A stretch of DNA of 42,642 nt, from the NCBI GenBank assembly GCA_030523425.1, contig JAUNIP010000011.1, positions 1 through 42,642 on the forward strand, read 5' to 3'. The notes under the pieces are model-generated. The model was not told where the DNA came from. It ran no database searches and saw only the letters and a list, made by a program, of their open reading frames with translations. A program made the translations under genes and the position numbers. Of this stretch, positions 30,232-37,588 are shown piece by piece (positions within the stretch are counted from its first letter, which is position 1; every line of letters starts with the position of its first letter). This DNA is from Coriobacteriia bacterium (lineage in GTDB: Bacteria; Actinomycetota; Coriobacteriia; Coriobacteriales; Eggerthellaceae).

Positions 30232-31062
30232 CTACTTCTTGCGACGACGAATGATCAGGCGGTTGGTGCTCTTCTTCGGGTTACGCGTACGATGGCCCTT
30301 GGTGGGAACACCCCATGGGGTGACCGGGTGACGGCCGGCGGACTTGTTCTTGCCTTCGCCGCCGCCATGGGGGTGGTCAACCGGGTTCATAACCGTACCA
30401 CGAACGGTAGGACGAACGCCCATCCAACGCTTGCGACCAGCCTTGCCGATCTTGATGTTTGAGTGTTCGGCGTTGCCCACTTCGCCCACAGTGGCGCGGC
30501 AGGTAAGCAGAACGCGACGCATTTCAGAAGAGGGCATGCGCAAAATGGCATACTTGCCTTCCTTGCCCATCAGCTGAATGCTGGTGCCGGCAGAGCGGGC
30601 CAACGCAGCGCCCTTGCCAGGCTGCAGTTCCACGGCGTGGATCAACGTACCCACGGGGATGTTGGCCAAAGGCAGAGCATTGCCAGGCTTGATGTCGGCA
30701 TCGGGACCGCTGACCACGGTGTCGCCTACCTGCAAGCCCTTGGGATGCAGGATGTAGCGCTTTTCGCCGTCCACGTAATGCAGCAGGGCGATGCGAGCCG
30801 TGCGGTTGGGGTCGTACTCGACGGTGGCCACCTTAGCGGGCACCCCGTCTTTGTTGCGCTTGAAGTCGATGATGCGATAACGGCGCTTGTTGCCGCCGCC
30901 CTGATGGCGGGTGGTAACGCGGCCGTAGCAGTTGCGACCGGCTTTCTTGGAAAGCGGTGCAAGCAGCGACTTCTCCGGCTTGTCCGTGGTGATTTCGGCA
31001 AAGTCCGAAACCGTCTGGAAGCGTCGACCAGGACTGGTCGGCTTGTATTGCTTAACTCCCAT
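30232..31062 (-). CDS. rplB: Large-subunit ribosomal protein uL2
   Basis: The 276-residue L2 supports the peptidyl-transferase centre. It begins [14 protein letters not shown] and includes [18 protein letters not shown] and the conserved [15 protein letters not shown] loop with the key histidine. Normally rplW precedes it directly; here 286 bases separate it from a trigger-factor-like gene and it probably has its own promoter. Confidence 0.97.
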
Positions 31063-31348
31063 TCTTGTTCCTTCCTTGGGCTTATCGCGCGTTTTTGCAG
31101 GTTGGAGGACTTCCCCCGCGCTGCGAAACGCGCTTGCCCTTTTGCGGATTCCCGCTCGCGCGCCTCACCGCACACCGGAAACCCTGTTACTATTACTGGG
31201 TCCGCGATAGCCGCGTACGGTCGCATGAGGACGAACCGTACCGACGCCGTTTTCCCACGCATCCGGGCGTATCCATTCGGAAACGTCAGACGCAAATGCA
31301 TAGTTTACCTGCAATTCGGCAGGTAATCAAGAACTATTTTTTTGAAAC
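31063..31348 (-). promoter_or_regulatory. Leader region of the rplB-adk operon, with promoter
   Basis: The minus strand carries TTGATT (31325-31330), a 17-base spacer and TAAACT (31302-31307). The start would lie near 31295, giving an mRNA leader of about 230 bases. The spacer contains an exact inverted repeat (31306-31312 with 31319-31325), placed like an operator. A stem at 31216-31240 lies inside the leader. Ribosome site: AAGGAAGG just before rplB. Confidence 0.55.
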
Positions 31349-32638
31349 TTACGCGTAAGTGATGATGGCGTGATCGACCGCCCAGTTGGCAGCCTTCAGG
31401 CGCGCGGCGGATTCCTTCAGGATGTAGTTGCGTCCGGACGTTTCCATTTCTTCGCGGATGGCCTTAGGGTTTTGGGGGTTCAGCGAACGGCACACCTGGT
31501 CTATGTCTTCGGATGTCACCTGCAAGCCTTCGTGCGCGAACAAGGCGTCAAGCGCAAAGCCCTGGGCCATGTTTTGGCGGACCTGCATCATCATCATCAT
31601 GGTCATCTGCTGCTCGCCGCCCATTTCCTTGGTGTAATCCTCCAACGACGTGCCTTGCTGGGCCAATTCCCTGGTCATGGCGTCACGCATGTTCTTCATC
31701 ATGGCTTCGTAGAGCTCGTCGGGGATGGATCCCTTGAAACGGTCCCCCAGCTTTTCGCCGGCAAGCTGCTGCAGCACGTCGCGCTGCTGGAAGGCAGCCT
31801 GGCTTTCAAGCCGGGCGCGCACGCTGCTGCGCAGTTGGTCGGCAGAATCGAAGCCCGGCATGAAGCGCTTCACCCATTCGTCGGTCAATTCGGGCATCTG
31901 GGATTGCTGAAGCTCTTTCACCGTGACCGTGCAGTTCACCGGGACCATTTCGGTTTCGCCGGCATCGTTGAAGTCGGGGGCCTGGAAGGTGAAGCTTTTG
32001 GTTTCGCCCGGCATCATACCCACCAGGTTGTCGTCGAAGCCCGCGGGCATGTAGTTTTCCCCTGTGACGTACGGGCGGCTTTCGAAGGTCATGTTGGGAA
32101 GCGGTGCGCCGTTCATGGACGTATCCATCTTCAGCAACACCGAGTCGCCTAAGGCCACGGGGCGGTTCTCGTCAAGCTTTACGTACTGGGCGAAACCGCT
32201 GATCATCTGTGTTACCGACTGCTCCACCTGATCATCGGTCACTTCCATCTTCGGCGCGGTGATTTCCACCGGCTCATATGATTCCAGTTCATAGCTGGGC
32301 TTGGGCAGAATGGTAATGCGGAACGGGAATTCCTTGCCGCGCACCAGCGGGCCCATAGGCACCGGGTCCGCCGGGCAAGCAGGCGTGATGCCGCGCTTGT
32401 CTATGGCGAAAGGCCCCAGGTATTCCACCACGTAATCCGCCACGATGGAATCCAAATCCTTGATGCCCATTTTTTCTTCGGCCACCTGGGCCACCGTCTT
32501 GCCTTCTTGCGGACGCCACCCCATCTGGTTGGCAAAGCGGATGTGAGCCTTGTTGAACGCCTGATCGACTTCCTTGGCGGTGGCCAAGGCCTCCAACCAC
32601 ACATGGCCGTCCTGCAGCGGCTTGGATATAACCTTCAT
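31349..32638 (-). CDS. Divergent trigger-factor-like chaperone
   Basis: The 429-residue protein follows the trigger factor plan: N-terminal domain, FKBP-like middle with a GDSVLLKMDTSMNG strand and the MPAGFDDNLVGMMPGETKSF core (about residues 165-225), then a long helical C-terminal domain. The ribosome-docking loop normally reading GFRxGKxP is replaced by MGWRPQEGKTV near residues 39-49, so docking on uL23 may be lost or altered. AGAGGA seven bases before the ATG supports the start. It lies between the TetR gene and rplB, an unusual place for tig. It may be a paralogue with another role, or the only copy; this window cannot tell. Confidence 0.7.
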   Translation of the reverse strand: MKVISKPLQDGHVWLEALATAKEVDQAFNKAHIRFANQMGWRPQEGKTVAQVAEEKMGIKDLDSIVADYVVEYLGPFAIDKRGITPACPADPVPMGPLVRGKEFPFRITILPKPSYELESYEPVEITAPKMEVTDDQVEQSVTQMISGFAQYVKLDENRPVALGDSVLLKMDTSMNGAPLPNMTFESRPYVTGENYMPAGFDDNLVGMMPGETKSFTFQAPDFNDAGETEMVPVNCTVTVKELQQSQMPELTDEWVKRFMPGFDSADQLRSSVRARLESQAAFQQRDVLQQLAGEKLGDRFKGSIPDELYEAMMKNMRDAMTRELAQQGTSLEDYTKEMGGEQQMTMMMMMQVRQNMAQGFALDALFAHEGLQVTSEDIDQVCRSLNPQNPKAIREEMETSGRNYILKESAARLKAANWAVDHAIITYA

Positions 32639-32712: not shown

Positions 32713-33348
32713 TCAGGCTATCGCGTACGTTCTGCGGGCGAATTGCGCAACCAGCGCCGCAAATTCGTCCTCGGCCAAGTTGCGCGACGACGACGCCAAG
32801 CGCACGCCTCCTTCGTCGTTTTGAATGTCCAAGAAATACAGCGCCGTGGTAAGCACGGCCCCTAGCATGGCCACCGCATGAAACTCCACGTCGGTGTTTG
32901 GGTCTACGCCGCCTTCGGCTATGCCGCGTTGGATGCAAGACGCCAAAAGGTCTATCAGGCGCTTTTCGTAGCTGTTTATGAACCCGATCATATTCCCCGT
33001 GGTCAGCGACATTTCGCTAGCCAAAAAGCGCGCCACTGGCTGGTTTTCGCACGCGAAATGGGCAAACGCGCTGCCCATGGCCTCCAGGGCGGCCAGCCCG
33101 CCTTGACTGCAATCCGCCACCTGTTCCAGCTGCGCCAGAAAGCCTTCCAACTGATCTTCCATCACGCAGGCGGCCATCGCTGCCTTGTTCTTGAAGTGGT
33201 AATACGCCAGGCCCTTGGAAACGCCGGCCTCCTTGACTATGTCGTCCATGGTAGCAGAAGCGTATCCCTTCGCACCGATGACCTTCGCGCCGGCTTCTAG
33301 CAGCGCCTGCCGCGTTGCCTTCGCTTTCGCTGTTGTGCGCGCACCCAT
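32713..33348 (-). CDS. TetR-family transcriptional regulator
   Basis: The 211-residue protein has an N-terminal helix-turn-helix (ATMDDIVKEAGVSKGLAYYHFKNK, about residues 33-56), very typical of TetR. A helical ligand-binding and dimer domain follows. An ORF extends 54 codons upstream inside the YhgE/Pip gene, but the start at 33348, eleven bases after that gene's stop, gives the usual length. It is third in the ATPase-YhgE/Pip-TetR-trigger factor order and probably represses this operon through the two sites at 36912-36986. Confidence 0.88.
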   Translation of the reverse strand: MGARTTAKAKATRQALLEAGAKVIGAKGYASATMDDIVKEAGVSKGLAYYHFKNKAAMAACVMEDQLEGFLAQLEQVADCSQGGLAALEAMGSAFAHFACENQPVARFLASEMSLTTGNMIGFINSYEKRLIDLLASCIQRGIAEGGVDPNTDVEFHAVAMLGAVLTTALYFLDIQNDEGGVRLASSSRNLAEDEFAALVAQFARRTYAIA

Positions 33349-33359
33349 AGCAGCCCGCC

Positions 33360-36146
33360 TTAGCCGGCCATCTGGATCTTGGGATACATGACGTCGAGCG
33401 TGGCCTTGCGGCGCTTCATGGCAAGCAGCGTGGAAAGCGCCAAGAACCCTACCATGAACAGCGCCATGACCACAAACGGCACCGCCATGTAGCCGGGGCT
33501 CAAACCGCACATGGCCACGCGGAAGCCCTTCACCACATAGGTCAGGGGAAGCACGGGGTTCAGCACGTTGAAGATGGGCAGTTCCGCTTCAATGGGGAAG
33601 GTGCCTGCGGCGGTACACAGCTGCAGCATCAGCAACACCACCAATACCACCAAGCCCGCCGTGCCGAAGGCGGCGCGGAAGAACTGCGCTATGGCCACGA
33701 ACGTCAGCGCCGTCAGCAGGCCGAACAGGTAATACTCCAAGGGGAAGTTCACCGTGAAGCCCAGCCCGAATTGGATAAGCAGCAGCAAAATGAGCACCTG
33801 AATGATGGCGATGCCGGCCATGGGCAGATAGCTGGAAAGCACCGCCGAAAAGGAGCTGGCGTTGCTCATAAGGATGCGGTCGTTCAACGAACGGATTAAG
33901 AAGGTGATCATCAGGCAGCCTACCCACATGCTCAGCCCAATGAAGTACGGAGCGAAGCCGGTGCCGTAGTTGCGCACCTGGGTGATGCTTTCGCCTGTTT
34001 GGTTTGAGCCGTTAGCAGTAACGGGGGCACTCATCATTTCGGACTTGGCGCTGCCGTTTGCGCTGCTTTCGGCAATCTGGGTTTGGCCATCCTTCAGACC
34101 GTCATACAGCGTGGCGGACCCGTCAGCAGCTGTGGAAAGGCCGCTGGTCAATTCGCCGGAGCCGTCGCGCAGTTGGCTGGCGCCGCTGTGCAGCTGGGAA
34201 GCGCCGCTAGAAGCGCTTTGGGCGCCGCTGTACAGCGAAGCCGTGCCGTATTTCAGCGTTGCCGCGCCGGCGCTAATTTGGCCGCTGCCGTCCTTGGCAG
34301 AAAATGCGCCTGCCTCCAGCTGGGTTACGCCCGTAAGCGCACTGGCGGTGCCGGCAACCAACGCCGCCGAACCTGCCGAAGCGCTGCCCAGGCCCTCTGC
34401 CAACTGTTTAGAGCCGTCCAACGCGCTTGCCGCGCCCGCATTCACCTGCGAAGCGCCGGCGCTGGCGCTTTCCAAACCGCTTGCCAGCTGGTCAGAGCCG
34501 TCTTTGGCCGAAGCGGCCCCGCCGGCAACGGAAGCCGCGCCGCTGTTGACGCTGGAAATGCCCGAAACGGCAGCCGCCACGCCGCTGTTCAGCTGAGCAG
34601 CACCGCCCGCCAAGGCCGAAGCGCCCGCCGTGTAGCTGGAAACGCCGTCGGCCAGGGACGAAGCACCCGCTGCGGCGCTGGAAATGCCATCGTTAATCTG
34701 GGCGAAGCCCGCATCGGCCGTGCCTAGCGCCTGGTAGGCGCCAGCATTTCCCGAAACCTCCCCCAGCCGCGTGACCGCGGCGTTCAGGGAATCAAGCGCT
34801 GCCGCCGCTTCGGCGCTGGTGGGCCCATAGGCCACCACGGCCATGGTGTAGTCGCTTAAAGCAGCGGCATAGGCGCCCTTGGCGCTGTCCACATCCATAT
34901 CAGCCGAAAGCGCTTCCATGGCGCCTTCGATGGTTTGGGTGTATTGGGCGCTGCCGGCCTGAAGCTGCGAAAGACCGCCGGAAAGTTCGGCCGCGCCGCC
35001 GTTCAAGGCATCGTTGTTGCCCACCAGCTGCCCCAGCCCGCCGCTGATTTCGCCAGCCCCGCTGGCAAGCGCGCCGGAGTTGTCAACCAGTTGCTGGGTG
35101 CCCGCGGCCAACGAAGCGCTGCCGTCGCTTAACGTACCCAAGCCTTCGCTGAGTTCCGTGGCGCCCGCAGAAAGGCTGACCAGCCCCGTATCCAGGCTTT
35201 CAGCGCCCGCAGAAAGCGACTGCATGCCGCTATACAGCGCCGCCGCGCCAGAATTCAGCGCTATCAGGCCGTTATCCAAAGAAGAGGTTCCATCGCCTAA
35301 GGCAGCAATGCCATAACGCAGCGTGGTGGCACCCGAAGCAAGCGAATCCAGGCCGCTGTCCAACGCAGTGGCACCCGACTGCAGCTGTTCGGCGCCGGAA
35401 TCAACCTGCCCGGCGCCGCTGGTAAGCGTCACCAAGCCGGAATTCAGTTCGGCGGCGCCGTCGGTCAGCGTGCCCAGGTTCACCGTGATGGTGTTGCTGC
35501 CATCGTATGCGCTGGTCAGACCGTCTTGCAGTTCCTTGGACCCGTCCACGGCGTCTTCCAAGCTGCTGCTGGCATCGCTTAAGGAAAGGAAGATATTCTC
35601 GTAATAGCTCTTCCCCACCTTTTCGTTCAGTTCCGCCCTGATCTTGGTGACCATGGAAGAGCCCACCGTTTGGGCGATCAGATTGGTGGAGGGGTTGAAA
35701 TGCACGTCCAGTTCGGCCTTTTGCGGCGCGCTGCTGTCAGCCGAAGCTATGCTGGCGCTGAAGTTTTCCGGAATGACCATTTCCATGTAGTAGGTGCCGT
35801 CTTCCAGGCCCGTGCGTGCTTCGTCAACGCTGTCCAAAAACACCCAGTCATAGCCTGTAGCCTGCCCCTCTTCGGCGTTCGCGTTGGCTTCCACCAACGA
35901 ATCGCACAGTTCGGTGCCCACATTGCGCACTTCGCCATCAATCGTAGCGCCCGCATCCAGGTTCACCACCGCTGCGGGAACATTGGAAAGGTTGCCGTAA
36001 GGGTCAAGGAAGGCCAGCAAGAACAGCCCTGCGTAAATTAGGGGAATCAGCGCTACGGCACACACGCTGAACATCTTCCAGCCGTTGGACTTCAGGTTTT
36101 TAGCTTCAAGCAGGGCGGAACGAATTCCTGTGAATGGTGACTTCAT
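33360..36146 (-). CDS. YhgE/Pip-type membrane protein with long repeat domain
   Basis: The 928-residue protein has one N-terminal helix (about 25-48), a very large extracellular region (about 50-700) and five to six C-terminal helices (about 715-905), the plan of the YhgE/Pip and ABC-2-like family. The extracellular part is mostly a short repeat of the form LxxGAxxLxxG, dozens of copies, expected to form a long helical rod. A break near residues 415-470 lacks the repeat. Relatives include phage-infection protein of Lactococcus and the membrane part of EsaA/MmpL-like exporters. It follows the ATPase gene by 3 bases. The function is likely export or surface transport, substrate unknown. Confidence 0.8.
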   Translation of the reverse strand: MKSPFTGIRSALLEAKNLKSNGWKMFSVCAVALIPLIYAGLFLLAFLDPYGNLSNVPAAVVNLDAGATIDGEVRNVGTELCDSLVEANANAEEGQATGYDWVFLDSVDEARTGLEDGTYYMEMVIPENFSASIASADSSAPQKAELDVHFNPSTNLIAQTVGSSMVTKIRAELNEKVGKSYYENIFLSLSDASSSLEDAVDGSKELQDGLTSAYDGSNTITVNLGTLTDGAAELNSGLVTLTSGAGQVDSGAEQLQSGATALDSGLDSLASGATTLRYGIAALGDGTSSLDNGLIALNSGAAALYSGMQSLSAGAESLDTGLVSLSAGATELSEGLGTLSDGSASLAAGTQQLVDNSGALASGAGEISGGLGQLVGNNDALNGGAAELSGGLSQLQAGSAQYTQTIEGAMEALSADMDVDSAKGAYAAALSDYTMAVVAYGPTSAEAAAALDSLNAAVTRLGEVSGNAGAYQALGTADAGFAQINDGISSAAAGASSLADGVSSYTAGASALAGGAAQLNSGVAAAVSGISSVNSGAASVAGGAASAKDGSDQLASGLESASAGASQVNAGAASALDGSKQLAEGLGSASAGSAALVAGTASALTGVTQLEAGAFSAKDGSGQISAGAATLKYGTASLYSGAQSASSGASQLHSGASQLRDGSGELTSGLSTAADGSATLYDGLKDGQTQIAESSANGSAKSEMMSAPVTANGSNQTGESITQVRNYGTGFAPYFIGLSMWVGCLMITFLIRSLNDRILMSNASSFSAVLSSYLPMAGIAIIQVLILLLLIQFGLGFTVNFPLEYYLFGLLTALTFVAIAQFFRAAFGTAGLVVLVVLLMLQLCTAAGTFPIEAELPIFNVLNPVLPLTYVVKGFRVAMCGLSPGYMAVPFVVMALFMVGFLALSTLLAMKRRKATLDVMYPKIQMAG

Positions 36147-36149
36147 AGC

Positions 36150-36896
36150 TTATTCCCCCTGTCCGTCCAAGCGCACACCGTTACCTGCACCGAACACCGG
36201 GCACAGCGCGCCGTCCCCTTGGTCGGCAAGCACAGCCTGACGCTGATCTTCGGCCCGCTGGGACAACACGACCACGCCGTGAGCATGCTTGGCAATGTCA
36301 TATTCGCCCGTAGCGAACAAAACAGTCATGCCCCGTTGTTCGCTCATATCACGCAACCGGTGCACCCAGTCAATAGACCGATGCTGGGTAACACCCATCT
36401 GGATGTCGTCCACCAGCAACAACGCCGGGTCGCCCGCACATGCCAACATGATGTTGAAAAGCAACCTTTCATTGGCTTCCAAGCCACGGTAAGACTCCTT
36501 CGCATAGTCCTGCATATCCCATTGCGCAAGGTAGTCCGCAACCGCCGCGCGCCCCGACTTCTTCCCCACCAACTGCATTTCAGCAGCCACAATGTCAGCA
36601 ATAGGAAGGTTTTCAGGAACGTCGTTCACGCGATGAATGATGGTAACAGCGCTCAGGTTACGCACCTTAGCAGCATTCTTCTTAACATCAAGACCGCCCA
36701 CGCGCGCCTGCCCGCCCTGATATTTCATGCGCCCGCACAACGAAAGCATCAACGCCGTCTTGCCGCTACCCTCAGAAGCAAACAACGCGCAAGCCTTACC
36801 CTTAGGCACGCTAAAGCTAACATCCCTATACACATAATCCATAGGAGTACGAAGCGAAAGCCCCCGCACATCCACAAACGCAAGTTGATCAGTCAC
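36150..36896 (-). CDS. Degenerate ABC-type ATPase, partner of the YhgE/Pip protein
   Basis: A 248-residue ABC fold with Walker A intact (SEGSGKT, 41-47). Other hallmarks are altered: the signature LSGGQ is RGLEANER (137-144), Walker B is LLLVDD with Asp164 where the catalytic Glu should be, and the switch histidine near residue 197 is missing (ATGEYD). It may bind ATP but hydrolyse it poorly. It starts with GTG, five bases after AAGGAG, and lies first in the operon, immediately upstream of the YhgE/Pip gene. Similar poorly conserved ATPases beside YhgE/Pip genes may form an unstudied exporter family. Confidence 0.7.
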   Translation of the reverse strand: MTDQLAFVDVRGLSLRTPMDYVYRDVSFSVPKGKACALFASEGSGKTALMLSLCGRMKYQGGQARVGGLDVKKNAAKVRNLSAVTIIHRVNDVPENLPIADIVAAEMQLVGKKSGRAAVADYLAQWDMQDYAKESYRGLEANERLLFNIMLACAGDPALLLVDDIQMGVTQHRSIDWVHRLRDMSEQRGMTVLFATGEYDIAKHAHGVVVLSQRAEDQRQAVLADQGDGALCPVFGAGNGVRLDGQGE

Positions 36897-36911: not shown

Positions 36912-36925
36912 TGACTATGCGGTCA
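36912..36925. promoter_or_regulatory. Operator-like site 1 (TetR type)
   Basis: TGACTATGCGGTCA has TGAC and GTCA arms six bases apart and lies just upstream of the ATPase ribosome site. It matches site 2 (read in the other direction) at 12 of 14 positions. Binding by the operon's TetR protein is inferred. Confidence 0.6.
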
Positions 36926-36972
36926 GTTTTGAACCCAGTGTACCCTACAATCAAGAAAAGCCGCCATTTTTT

Positions 36973-36986
36973 TGACCGCCCAGTCA
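36973..36986. promoter_or_regulatory. Operator-like site 2 (TetR type)
   Basis: TGACCGCCCAGTCA, whose complement TGACTGGGCGGTCA differs from site 1 at only two central bases. Both are flanked by T-runs. Centres are 61 bases apart and bracket a TACACT (-10-like) on the minus strand, as expected for repression of the ATPase-YhgE/Pip operon. Confidence 0.6.
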
Positions 36987-37063
36987 GTTTTTCATAAACC
37001 CCACAAACAAAAAGCCATGTTGTGCGAAGCGCAACGAGCACGACACCCCTGACGGTGAAATGG

Positions 37064-37162
37064 GGTGAAATGGGGACGTAGCACTTTTCACATTTTCATG
37101 TGTCAGCTGCAACTTGGTGCACGAACCAGAAAATGTGAAAAGTGCTACGTCCCCATTTCACC
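37064..37162. repeat. Large inverted repeat, 33-bp perfect arms
   Basis: Arms 37064-37096 and 37130-37162 are exact reverse complements with a 33-base loop. A direct duplication of the outer 11 bases precedes the left arm (37054-37064). The right arm recurs, with small changes, at 20-52 of this window, so it is a dispersed element. No ORF is inside. Confidence 0.85.
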
Positions 37163-37164
37163 AA

Positions 37165-37221
37165 AACTGCACCTCCGAAACTCGAACTTTCTTTTCTAAG
37201 TCCAAGTTCCGGGGTGCAGTT
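37165..37221 (-). terminator. Imperfect palindrome after rplW, possible terminator
   Basis: Arms 37165-37189 and 37198-37221 pair with a few mismatches and G-U pairs. On the minus strand the stem is followed by TTTT. It lies 85 bases past the rplW stop, so it could end the rpsL-rplW transcript before the efflux operon. Confidence 0.45.
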
Positions 37222-37306: not shown

Positions 37307-37588
37307 TTAGCCGAAGATCTCGATAGTCTGCCCTTCGGCCACCGTAATCATGGCCTTCTTCCAAGTACGCGTGAACCCGGCATGCACGCCGCGGCGCTTC
37401 GGCTTAGCCTTCACGTTCAGCGTGTTCACCTTCACCACATCAACGCTGAAGATGGTCTCAATGGCCTTGGCGATCTCAATCTTGTTGGCGTCCTTGGCCA
37501 CCTCGAAGGTGTACACGCCTTCCTCCATCACGTCGTAGCTGCGCTCGGTGATGACCGGGCGGATGATAATCTCGCGAGGATCCTTCAT
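37307..37588 (-). CDS. rplW: Large-subunit ribosomal protein uL23
   Basis: The 93-residue L23 at the tunnel exit is the main docking site for trigger factor and SRP. Seen: DPREIIIRPVITERSYDVME at the start and VNTLNVKAKPKRRGVHAGFTRTWKKAMI, the rRNA-binding loop. Its start shares a base with the rplD stop (TAATG). It is the last gene before the break in the S10 cluster. Confidence 0.96.
   Translation of the reverse strand: MKDPREIIIRPVITERSYDVMEEGVYTFEVAKDANKIEIAKAIETIFSVDVVKVNTLNVKAKPKRRGVHAGFTRTWKKAMITVAEGQTIEIFG

Follow-up and report, generated by a model that had tools for sequence, protein, structure and literature searches.

The canonical trigger factor (TF) is reportedly tethered to the ribosome on uL23, through its FRK residues. 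The DNA analyzed here, a 42,642-nucleotide stretch from a Coriobacteriia bacterium of the family Eggerthellaceae (assembly GCA_030523425.1, contig JAUNIP010000011.1; hereafter the window), encodes among its ribosomal protein genes a TF paralog that lacks the docking motif. What might such a protein do in the cell, and is it a peculiarity of one genome or a feature of the family?

The window gene has the domains of a full-length trigger factor

The gene (Table 1), which we call TF2 together with its orthologs, scored 198.9 bits against the TIGR00115 (tig) model, above the cut-off of 180.2, and is thereby a member of the family. Trigger_N (44.0; cut-off, 22.2) and Trigger_C (64.3; cut-off, 22.7) were both recognized in the Pfam search, and FKBP_C scored 15.7, under its cut-off of 21.1. 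The FKBP-type middle domain was nevertheless recognizable by fold, with residues ∼156 to 249 matching FKBP chains at Z scores of 9.3 to 10.9 and an rmsd of mostly 2 to 3.7. The underlying AlphaFold model, made with 45 sequences, had a mean pLDDT of 91.2 (all residues at least 70) and a pTM of 0.73. Its best PDB match in a Foldseek search was E. coli TF (1w26; E = 4.9e-22), and the top matches were trigger factors, with the ribosome-binding-domain chains 1oms and 1p9y further down (TM of 0.61 to 0.63 on the target). In a VIA comparison, 1w26 matched over residues 1 to 429 with a Z score of 16.0, 383 aligned residues and an rmsd of 18.2. Since we ascribe this rmsd to a differing domain placement, we claim for TF2 the domains and not their arrangement.

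The three-domain architecture of canonical TF (tig, TIGR00115; 1w26) is thus common to TF2 over its full length, and the claim of an earlier note on this DNA, that the FKBP-like and helical domains remain, is borne out by the Trigger_C score and by the fold matches to FKBP chains and 1w26. The N-domain, too, was predicted at high confidence (strands at 2 to 7, 13 to 19 and 104 to 110; helices at 21 to 38, 49 to 57 and 67 to 82); in the model, its fold is retained and the docking loop is rewritten. TF2 differs from canonical TF in the absence of GFRxGxxP, in a neutral loop, in a Met-rich arm and in a location away from clpPX, often within the S10 operon.

Table 1. Coordinates of the features in the window
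Feature	Position	Strand	Remarks
TF2, trigger factor paralog lacking the GFRxGxxP motif for uL23 docking	31349..32638	-	429 aa; ATG start
Loop codons of TF2, residues 39-49, MGWRPQEGKTV, replacing GFRKGKAP	32492..32524	-	Derived by hand from the ORF start
Conserved Met-rich helix of the C-terminal arm of TF2, residues 340-362, GGEQQMTMMMMMQVRQNMAQGFA	31553..31621	-	Coordinates by hand
rplW (uL23, docking protein of canonical TF), last S10-operon gene before the insert	37307..37588	-	Start set by hand at the MKDPREI Met; Pfam scan used 37312-37576
ABC ATPase, at the head of the window-specific insert	36150..36896	-	
YhgE/Pip-type ABC-2 exporter	33360..36146	-	928 aa; TIGR03061, TIGR03062, PF12698
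TetR-type regulator	32713..33510	-	Longest ORF; TetR_N domain
rplB (uL2), S10 operon resumes	30232..31062	-	

Two other trigger factors of the same genome carry the motif

A Trigger_N search of the whole genome, which is 99% complete, yielded three genes: the window TF2, TF1 and TF3. TF1 (contig C58) carries GFRKGKAP and adjoins clpP and clpX, and the divergent TF3 (contig C4) carries GFRKGKAP as well. Proximity of tig to clpP and clpX is common, not universal; a usual location beside clpP-clpX is stated in PMC7804408. The earlier note had remarked that the window gene lies away from clpP/clpX, which agrees with these genes flanking TF1, and had suggested looking for a second, canonical tig; the genome in fact contains two motif-bearing ones. 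With other tig genes present, the absence of any other tig, one half of what the note had named as speaking against its reading, is excluded. We also rejected the idea that TF2 is the sole, degenerate tig of a reduced genome, there being two more.

TF1 and TF2 of the window genome are about 30% identical. This low identity speaks against the idea, drawn by analogy, that TF2 mainly acts on TF1 as a partner or brake through mixed dimers. Such dimers would find a precedent in the head-to-tail dimer of E. coli TF, in which the ribosome-binding domain touches the substrate-binding domain (PMC5722895), yet we consider this role very unlikely.

TF3 (L005:6064-7368, minus strand), the second motif-bearing TF of the window genome, was found by hand count in 20 of 99 Eggerthellaceae genomes, all of them bearing TF2 (20/71, versus 0/28 of the genomes without TF2; hand counts). 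TF1 and TF3 were read with both motifs intact in nine genomes (G000, G006, G013, G022, G030, G051, G056, G061 and G070), and in G082, which is among the 20, the Trigger_N search turned up no TF1. On the contig of TF3, ∼4 kb away, lies a C-domain-only TF relative (L005:1372-2148, plus strand; Trigger_C, 31.8 bits), and beside it on the opposite strand, ∼3.3 kb from TF3, an FKBP/SlyD-like gene (L005:2215-2724, minus strand). This pair resembles a dismantled trigger factor.

The docking loop is replaced by a different conserved loop

The earlier note had recognized that MGWRPQEGKTV replaces the uL23 loop, and the comparison within the genome confirms it: TF1 reads GFRKGKAPRPV at that place, the aligned loop regions being NFPGFRKGKAPRPVID for TF1 and QMGWRPQEGKTVAQVAE for TF2. 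Within the first 100 to 110 residues, GxRxG was present in 31/31 TF1 (the window genome's and the 30 best-scoring Trigger_N loci, hence not a random sample) and 20/20 TF3 sequences. It was found in 0/55 TF2 sequences (56 rows, one of which, L097, ends before the loop) and 0/21 TF4 sequences, TF4 being a second motif-less group of the family. It was likewise found in none of the 45 rows of an alignment of the window TF2 with 44 of 49 named loci, which overlaps with the TF2 row set. The mean net charge of the loop, aligned to residues 33 to 58, was +4.4 for TF1, +3.1 for TF3, -0.5 for TF2 and -2.5 for TF4; for TF4, these charge counts and the composition counts below include 23 rows, among them L096 and L098, both of which were left out of the 21-row motif count.

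The replacement loop is itself conserved, with M39 in 43, G40 in 32, R42 in 26, P43 in 40, K47 in 35 and G58 in all 45 rows of the alignment. Judging from this conservation, the loop could have another binding task, which might even be on the ribosome. A weak residual ribosome contact of the window TF2 is also possible, because its loop keeps R and GK (GWRPQEGK). TF2 might still be bound to the ribosome, via its own loop (MG-L/I/M-R-P-x-x-GKTVAQVAEE) or another face, and serve other nascent chains as an additional factor at the tunnel exit. The N-domain fold retained in the model, the clade-wide conservation of the loop and the frequent location of the gene beside or near rplW would all suit such a factor. 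However, the loop has lost its basic charge, and the motif-less TFs of Myxococcus xanthus, whose N-domains differ or are missing, do not co-sediment with ribosomes (PMC11559001). On balance, we regard a ribosome-bound TF2 as unlikely.

The second hallmark of TF2 lies in its C-terminal arm. Met content at residues 336 to 372 was 12.7% in TF2 (12.6% once L092, whose arm is cut, is left out), compared with 3.1% in TF1, 4.6% in TF3 and 7.1% in TF4. The arm motif GGEQQFxMMxMMQxR is nearly fixed, with G340, Q344 and R354 in 45/45 and M347 and M350 in 44/45 rows; it is Met- and Gln-rich and falls within a helix that the AlphaFold model predicts at residues 342 to 369. At the matching residues of the TF1 arm, acidic and lysine residues are commoner than in TF2. 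In SRP, a Met-rich groove binds hydrophobic segments. The TF2 arm would resemble this groove in composition only, and what it may say about the type of client is a guess by analogy.

TF2 is a maintained clade across the Eggerthellaceae

TF2 orthologs were counted by hand in 71 of 99 Eggerthellaceae genomes and 32 of 48 genera, the 71 comprising 70 genomes at 261 bits or more and G015, which was placed by a tree of 105 rows; several of the 28 genomes without TF2 are incomplete. Carriers include Gordonibacter, Eggerthella, Paraeggerthella, Adlercreutzia, Slackia, Rubneribacter and Ellagibacter as well as other Eggerthellaceae/Coriobacteriia bacteria. When the TF2 profile was run against 197 Coriobacteriia genomes, including 33 from the Eggerthellaceae, orthologs within the family scored at least 568 bits, and the best match outside the family scored 275 bits. 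The latter is an N-domain-less TF (L227:7046-8077, plus strand) of G117, from another Coriobacteriia family.

Score alone fails to part TF2 from TF4 at the lower edge, where the tree was used. G067 (L100; 261.7 bits), located between rplW and rplB, falls in the TF2 clade of the 105-row tree, and G015 (L097; 237 bits) groups with TF2. Grouping with TF4 are G007:C19 (L125; 260.3 bits), G047 (L098; 233 bits) and G001 (L096; 224 bits); L096 and L098, TF2 by score, were moved to TF4 on account of their tree placement and their lack of S10 neighbors. The tree holds 30 TF2-clade rows, the remaining genomes of the 71 having been assigned by score, most of them far above the edge.

In this quick tree, TF2 formed one clade (30 rows; SH-aLRT, 100). 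With 60 of these 105 rows and without the motif columns, a careful tree again recovered TF2 as one clade (99/99; 16 rows), TF2 plus TF4 as one motif-less clade (100/100; 28 rows) and TF1 and TF3 as separate clades (100/100 each). It excluded L096, L098, L097, L100, L144, L145, L213 and L241 and was also without L200, and two long TF4 branches meet in it. The two trees disagree on where the TF2/TF4 clade stands with respect to TF1, TF3 and the outgroups. In the 105-row tree, the motif-less L241 (G040) stands on a long branch beside an outgroup row, and the N-domain-less L200 (G117, other Coriobacteriia family) stands on a long branch beside TF2/TF4; in view of these two placements, a single origin of the motif loss is supported for the TF2 plus TF4 set only. 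TF4 is like TF2 in being motif-less, in forming one supported clade and in having part of the Met/Gln arm in common, but it is more divergent and patchy, and some copies stand in tandem with a C-domain-only gene. No S10 genes were seen beside TF4 at L096 and L098, the two loci with wide flanks. Separately, TF2-profile matches numbered 11 in G073 (Raoultibacter-like) and 10 in G040 (Gordonibacter-like); some are pieces of one gene and several are without the N-domain, and they look like a large expansion of the TF family.

In 12 pairs of TF2 genes from other genomes, dN/dS was 0.03 to 0.40, compared with 0.12 to 0.42 in four TF1 pairs and 0.02 to 0.24 in three TF3 pairs calculated with the same script, the values being rough for some pairs, with synonymous distances near or above 1. 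The window TF2, whose closest relative is 49% identical, stood outside this comparison. Since the TF2 values lie in the range of those of TF1 and TF3, we conclude that the gene is maintained and not decaying. Chance or mis-assembly as the source of the loop was rejected, since the loop change is common to a supported clade under purifying selection.

TF2 often resides in a split S10 operon

The gene order in the window is rpsL rpsG fusA rpsJ rplC rplD rplW, ABC ATPase, YhgE/Pip, TetR, TF2, rplB rpsS rplV rpsC rplP. The earlier note had correctly seen TF2 between a TetR gene and rplB (Table 1), and because rplW lies upstream of the ABC, YhgE/Pip and TetR genes, TF2 is located inside an interrupted S10 operon. 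The true start of TetR probably belongs to the stretch from 32716 to 33345, which alone yields TetR_N. A promoter consensus scan of the window gave 0 sites (mean in shuffled sequences, 2.3), and 8 terminator-like sites were found (7.7 expected); as neither scan did better than chance, we make no claim about transcription units.

Several repeats were noticed in the intergenic regions of the window. Between rplW and the ABC gene, in a gap of 413 bp, lies an inverted repeat with perfect 34-base arms (37064-37162) that has the look of a small mobile element or IS end. Rfam models matched the window only below threshold, with microRNA models on the long palindrome at 37059-37166 and one snoRNA in fusA, all taken as chance. 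Just upstream of the ABC gene (36912-36986), two near-palindromes, TGACTGGGCGGTCA and TGACCGCATAGTCA, are candidate TetR operators. In the TF2-rplB gap (31062-31349), a palindrome, TTACCTGC-cgaatt-GCAGGTAA, lies inside a promoter-like TTGATT-17-TAAACT, and it was the top palindrome in no other locus scanned.

We mapped 39 TF2 loci, the window and 38 others, with up to 7 kb on each side as the contig permitted. TF2 stood between rplW and rplB in all 13 loci with both genes in view; only rplB was visible in 10 loci, only rplW in 4 and neither in 12, and S10 genes lay on the expected side in 27/39. Short contigs or larger inserts could explain the 12 loci without an S10 gene in the fetched stretch, several of which have FtsX. 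The simplest arrangement, rplW-188 bp-TF2-310 bp-rplB (gaps between aligned ends), was seen at L075 and likewise at L160, and TF2 follows rplW by ∼200 bp or less at L075, L078, L094 and L099. Such closeness to rplW may point to a function tied to the ribosome.

The split itself extends beyond TF2. In other Coriobacteriia families, rplW and rplB were neighbors, 139 to 206 bp apart, in 9/9 rplB loci, whereas in Eggerthellaceae without TF2 (L247 to L263, L269, L273 and L275) there was no rplW within 1.5 kb upstream of rplB in 20/20 loci, various other ORFs lying there instead. The S10 split is thus seen throughout the family members examined, as a gene-collecting site of which TF2 is a frequent resident. 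Since genes are inserted between rplW and rplB in the Eggerthellaceae generally, the position of TF2 may be inherited rather than functional.

This bears on the idea that TF2, made within the S10 operon, is specialized in chaperoning ribosomal proteins or the assembly of the 50S subunit. The constant position between rplW and rplB and the short distances behind rplW would agree with it. Support from other trigger factors comes from the Thermotoga maritima TF structures 3gty and 3gu0, whose title names an assembly activity; the client was reportedly S7. The plant TF variant Tig2, for its part, acts in ribosome biogenesis (PMC11731035). Against it stand the 20/20 family loci that are split without TF2 and the 28/99 genomes, some of them incomplete, that do without the gene, and we hold a dedicated assembly chaperone to be rather improbable.

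Exporters accompany TF2 but are not conserved with it

The earlier note had proposed TF2 as a chaperone for the large exporter upstream. The start of TF2 in the window is separated by ∼75 bp from the preceding TetR gene, which belongs to the exporter cluster, yet YhgE/Pip and TetR stand beside TF2 in the window only, being absent beside 40 other mapped loci (38 of them TF2) and 49 loci from named records. This makes the exporter-client idea weak. In 21 of the 39 loci, TF2 is preceded on its own strand by an ABC permease of the FtsX/MacB type, mostly of 900 to 1,200 aa (Pfam FtsX, 103.8 bits in the one scanned), and in several cases the two are within ∼150 bp of each other. This would again agree with a role of TF2 in serving the ABC exporter encoded beside it. 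However, the type of exporter varies by genome and is absent in others, TF2 standing alone between rplW and rplB at L075 and L160. The FtsX permease, counted as present at 400 bits or more in one piece, also occurs in 17/28 genomes without TF2, versus 56/71 with it (hand counts, confounded by descent), and in the window genome we found no ortholog of it, the best match being 26% identical. No fixed exporter-TF2 pair is shown by these data. An exporter-specific chaperone was therefore set aside, the exporter not being conserved with TF2, and service to the neighboring exporter appears highly improbable.

Discussion

The whole clade has lost the motif together with the basic charge of the loop, as would suit a chaperone that does without uL23 docking. 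In our preferred explanation, TF2 is probably an old TF duplicate, widespread in the Eggerthellaceae, that has given up the known mode of uL23 docking and works as a free, ATP-independent holdase/foldase beside the ribosome-bound TF1. Judging by the E. coli FRK/AAA mutant and the motif-less paralogs of Myxococcus, loss of the loop would abolish docking on uL23, and TF2 would work untethered in the cytosol as an ATP-independent chaperone. Its cradle would bind distinct, probably more hydrophobic clients through the Met-rich arm. Placement in the ribosomal operon would let the TF2 dose track growth without crowding the tunnel exit. The N-domain fold may have been retained as part of the cradle or for binding another partner via the new loop.

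The free-cytosol reading of TF2 draws on two published observations. Bound-state occupancy of E. coli TF was 85%, and the FRK/AAA mutant had an occupancy of 20% in the slow state (PMC11725819). Three motif-less TF homologs of M. xanthus did not co-sediment with ribosomes and raised GAPDH refolding (PMC11559001). The motif-less M. xanthus copies did not, however, prevent GAPDH aggregation (PMC11559001), which counts against our preferred explanation.

Motif-less TF duplicates as such are already known. In the study by Wan et al. (mBio 2024; PMC11559001), TF is described as almost always single-copy, its dose being limited by ribosome binding and holding activity, and multi-TF genomes make up 390 of 15,241 TF-bearing genomes; just one TF bears the motif in 367 of the 390 and two do in 23. 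These genomes are not closely related except for the Myxococcales, many belong to Clostridia, and most, not all, of the motif-less copies are shorter, mostly by N-domain deficiency. TF2 is like these duplicates in lacking GxRxG and in being an addition to a motif-bearing TF, and like them it is likely relieved from the dosage limit; it is unlike them in keeping the whole N-domain fold and in forming a family-wide clade. With two motif-bearing TFs, the window genome is also of a kind that is rare among the multi-TF genomes of that study (PMC11559001). The plastid Tig2 of plants is, like TF2, a paralog that derives from TF and has its own task. It is the reverse case in structure, consisting of the ribosome-binding domain only and hypothesized to bind the tunnel exit (PMC11731035), whereas TF2 is full length and has lost the docking motif. 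The main text of PMC11559001 contains no mention of "Eggerthell," "Coriobact" or "Actinobact," and in open-access full text we found no treatment of TF paralogs in Eggerthellaceae or Coriobacteria or in the S10 operon. As far as searched, the family-wide full-length clade, the operon position and the Met-rich arm are thus new.

A more far-reaching reading, which we offer tentatively and consider doubtful, is that the Eggerthellaceae possess a second conserved TF system whose gene is set between those for uL23 and uL2. It would not hold on to the ribosome by the known motif and would grip clients by the Met-rich arm, and being produced together with ribosomal proteins would determine its task, be it r-protein or 50S assembly or hydrophobic post-translational clients, within a three-part network that includes TF3. 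If true, such a network would break the rule of one docking TF, and TF3, present in 20/99 genomes by hand count, marks a clade-level cluster of exceptions to that pattern. A full-length TF with a rewritten loop throughout a family amounts to a natural separation-of-function experiment on what TF does off the ribosome and on the purpose of its N-domain. Eggerthella and Gordonibacter are drug- and diet-metabolizing gut bacteria, and through them the question of TF2 function touches cultured strains.
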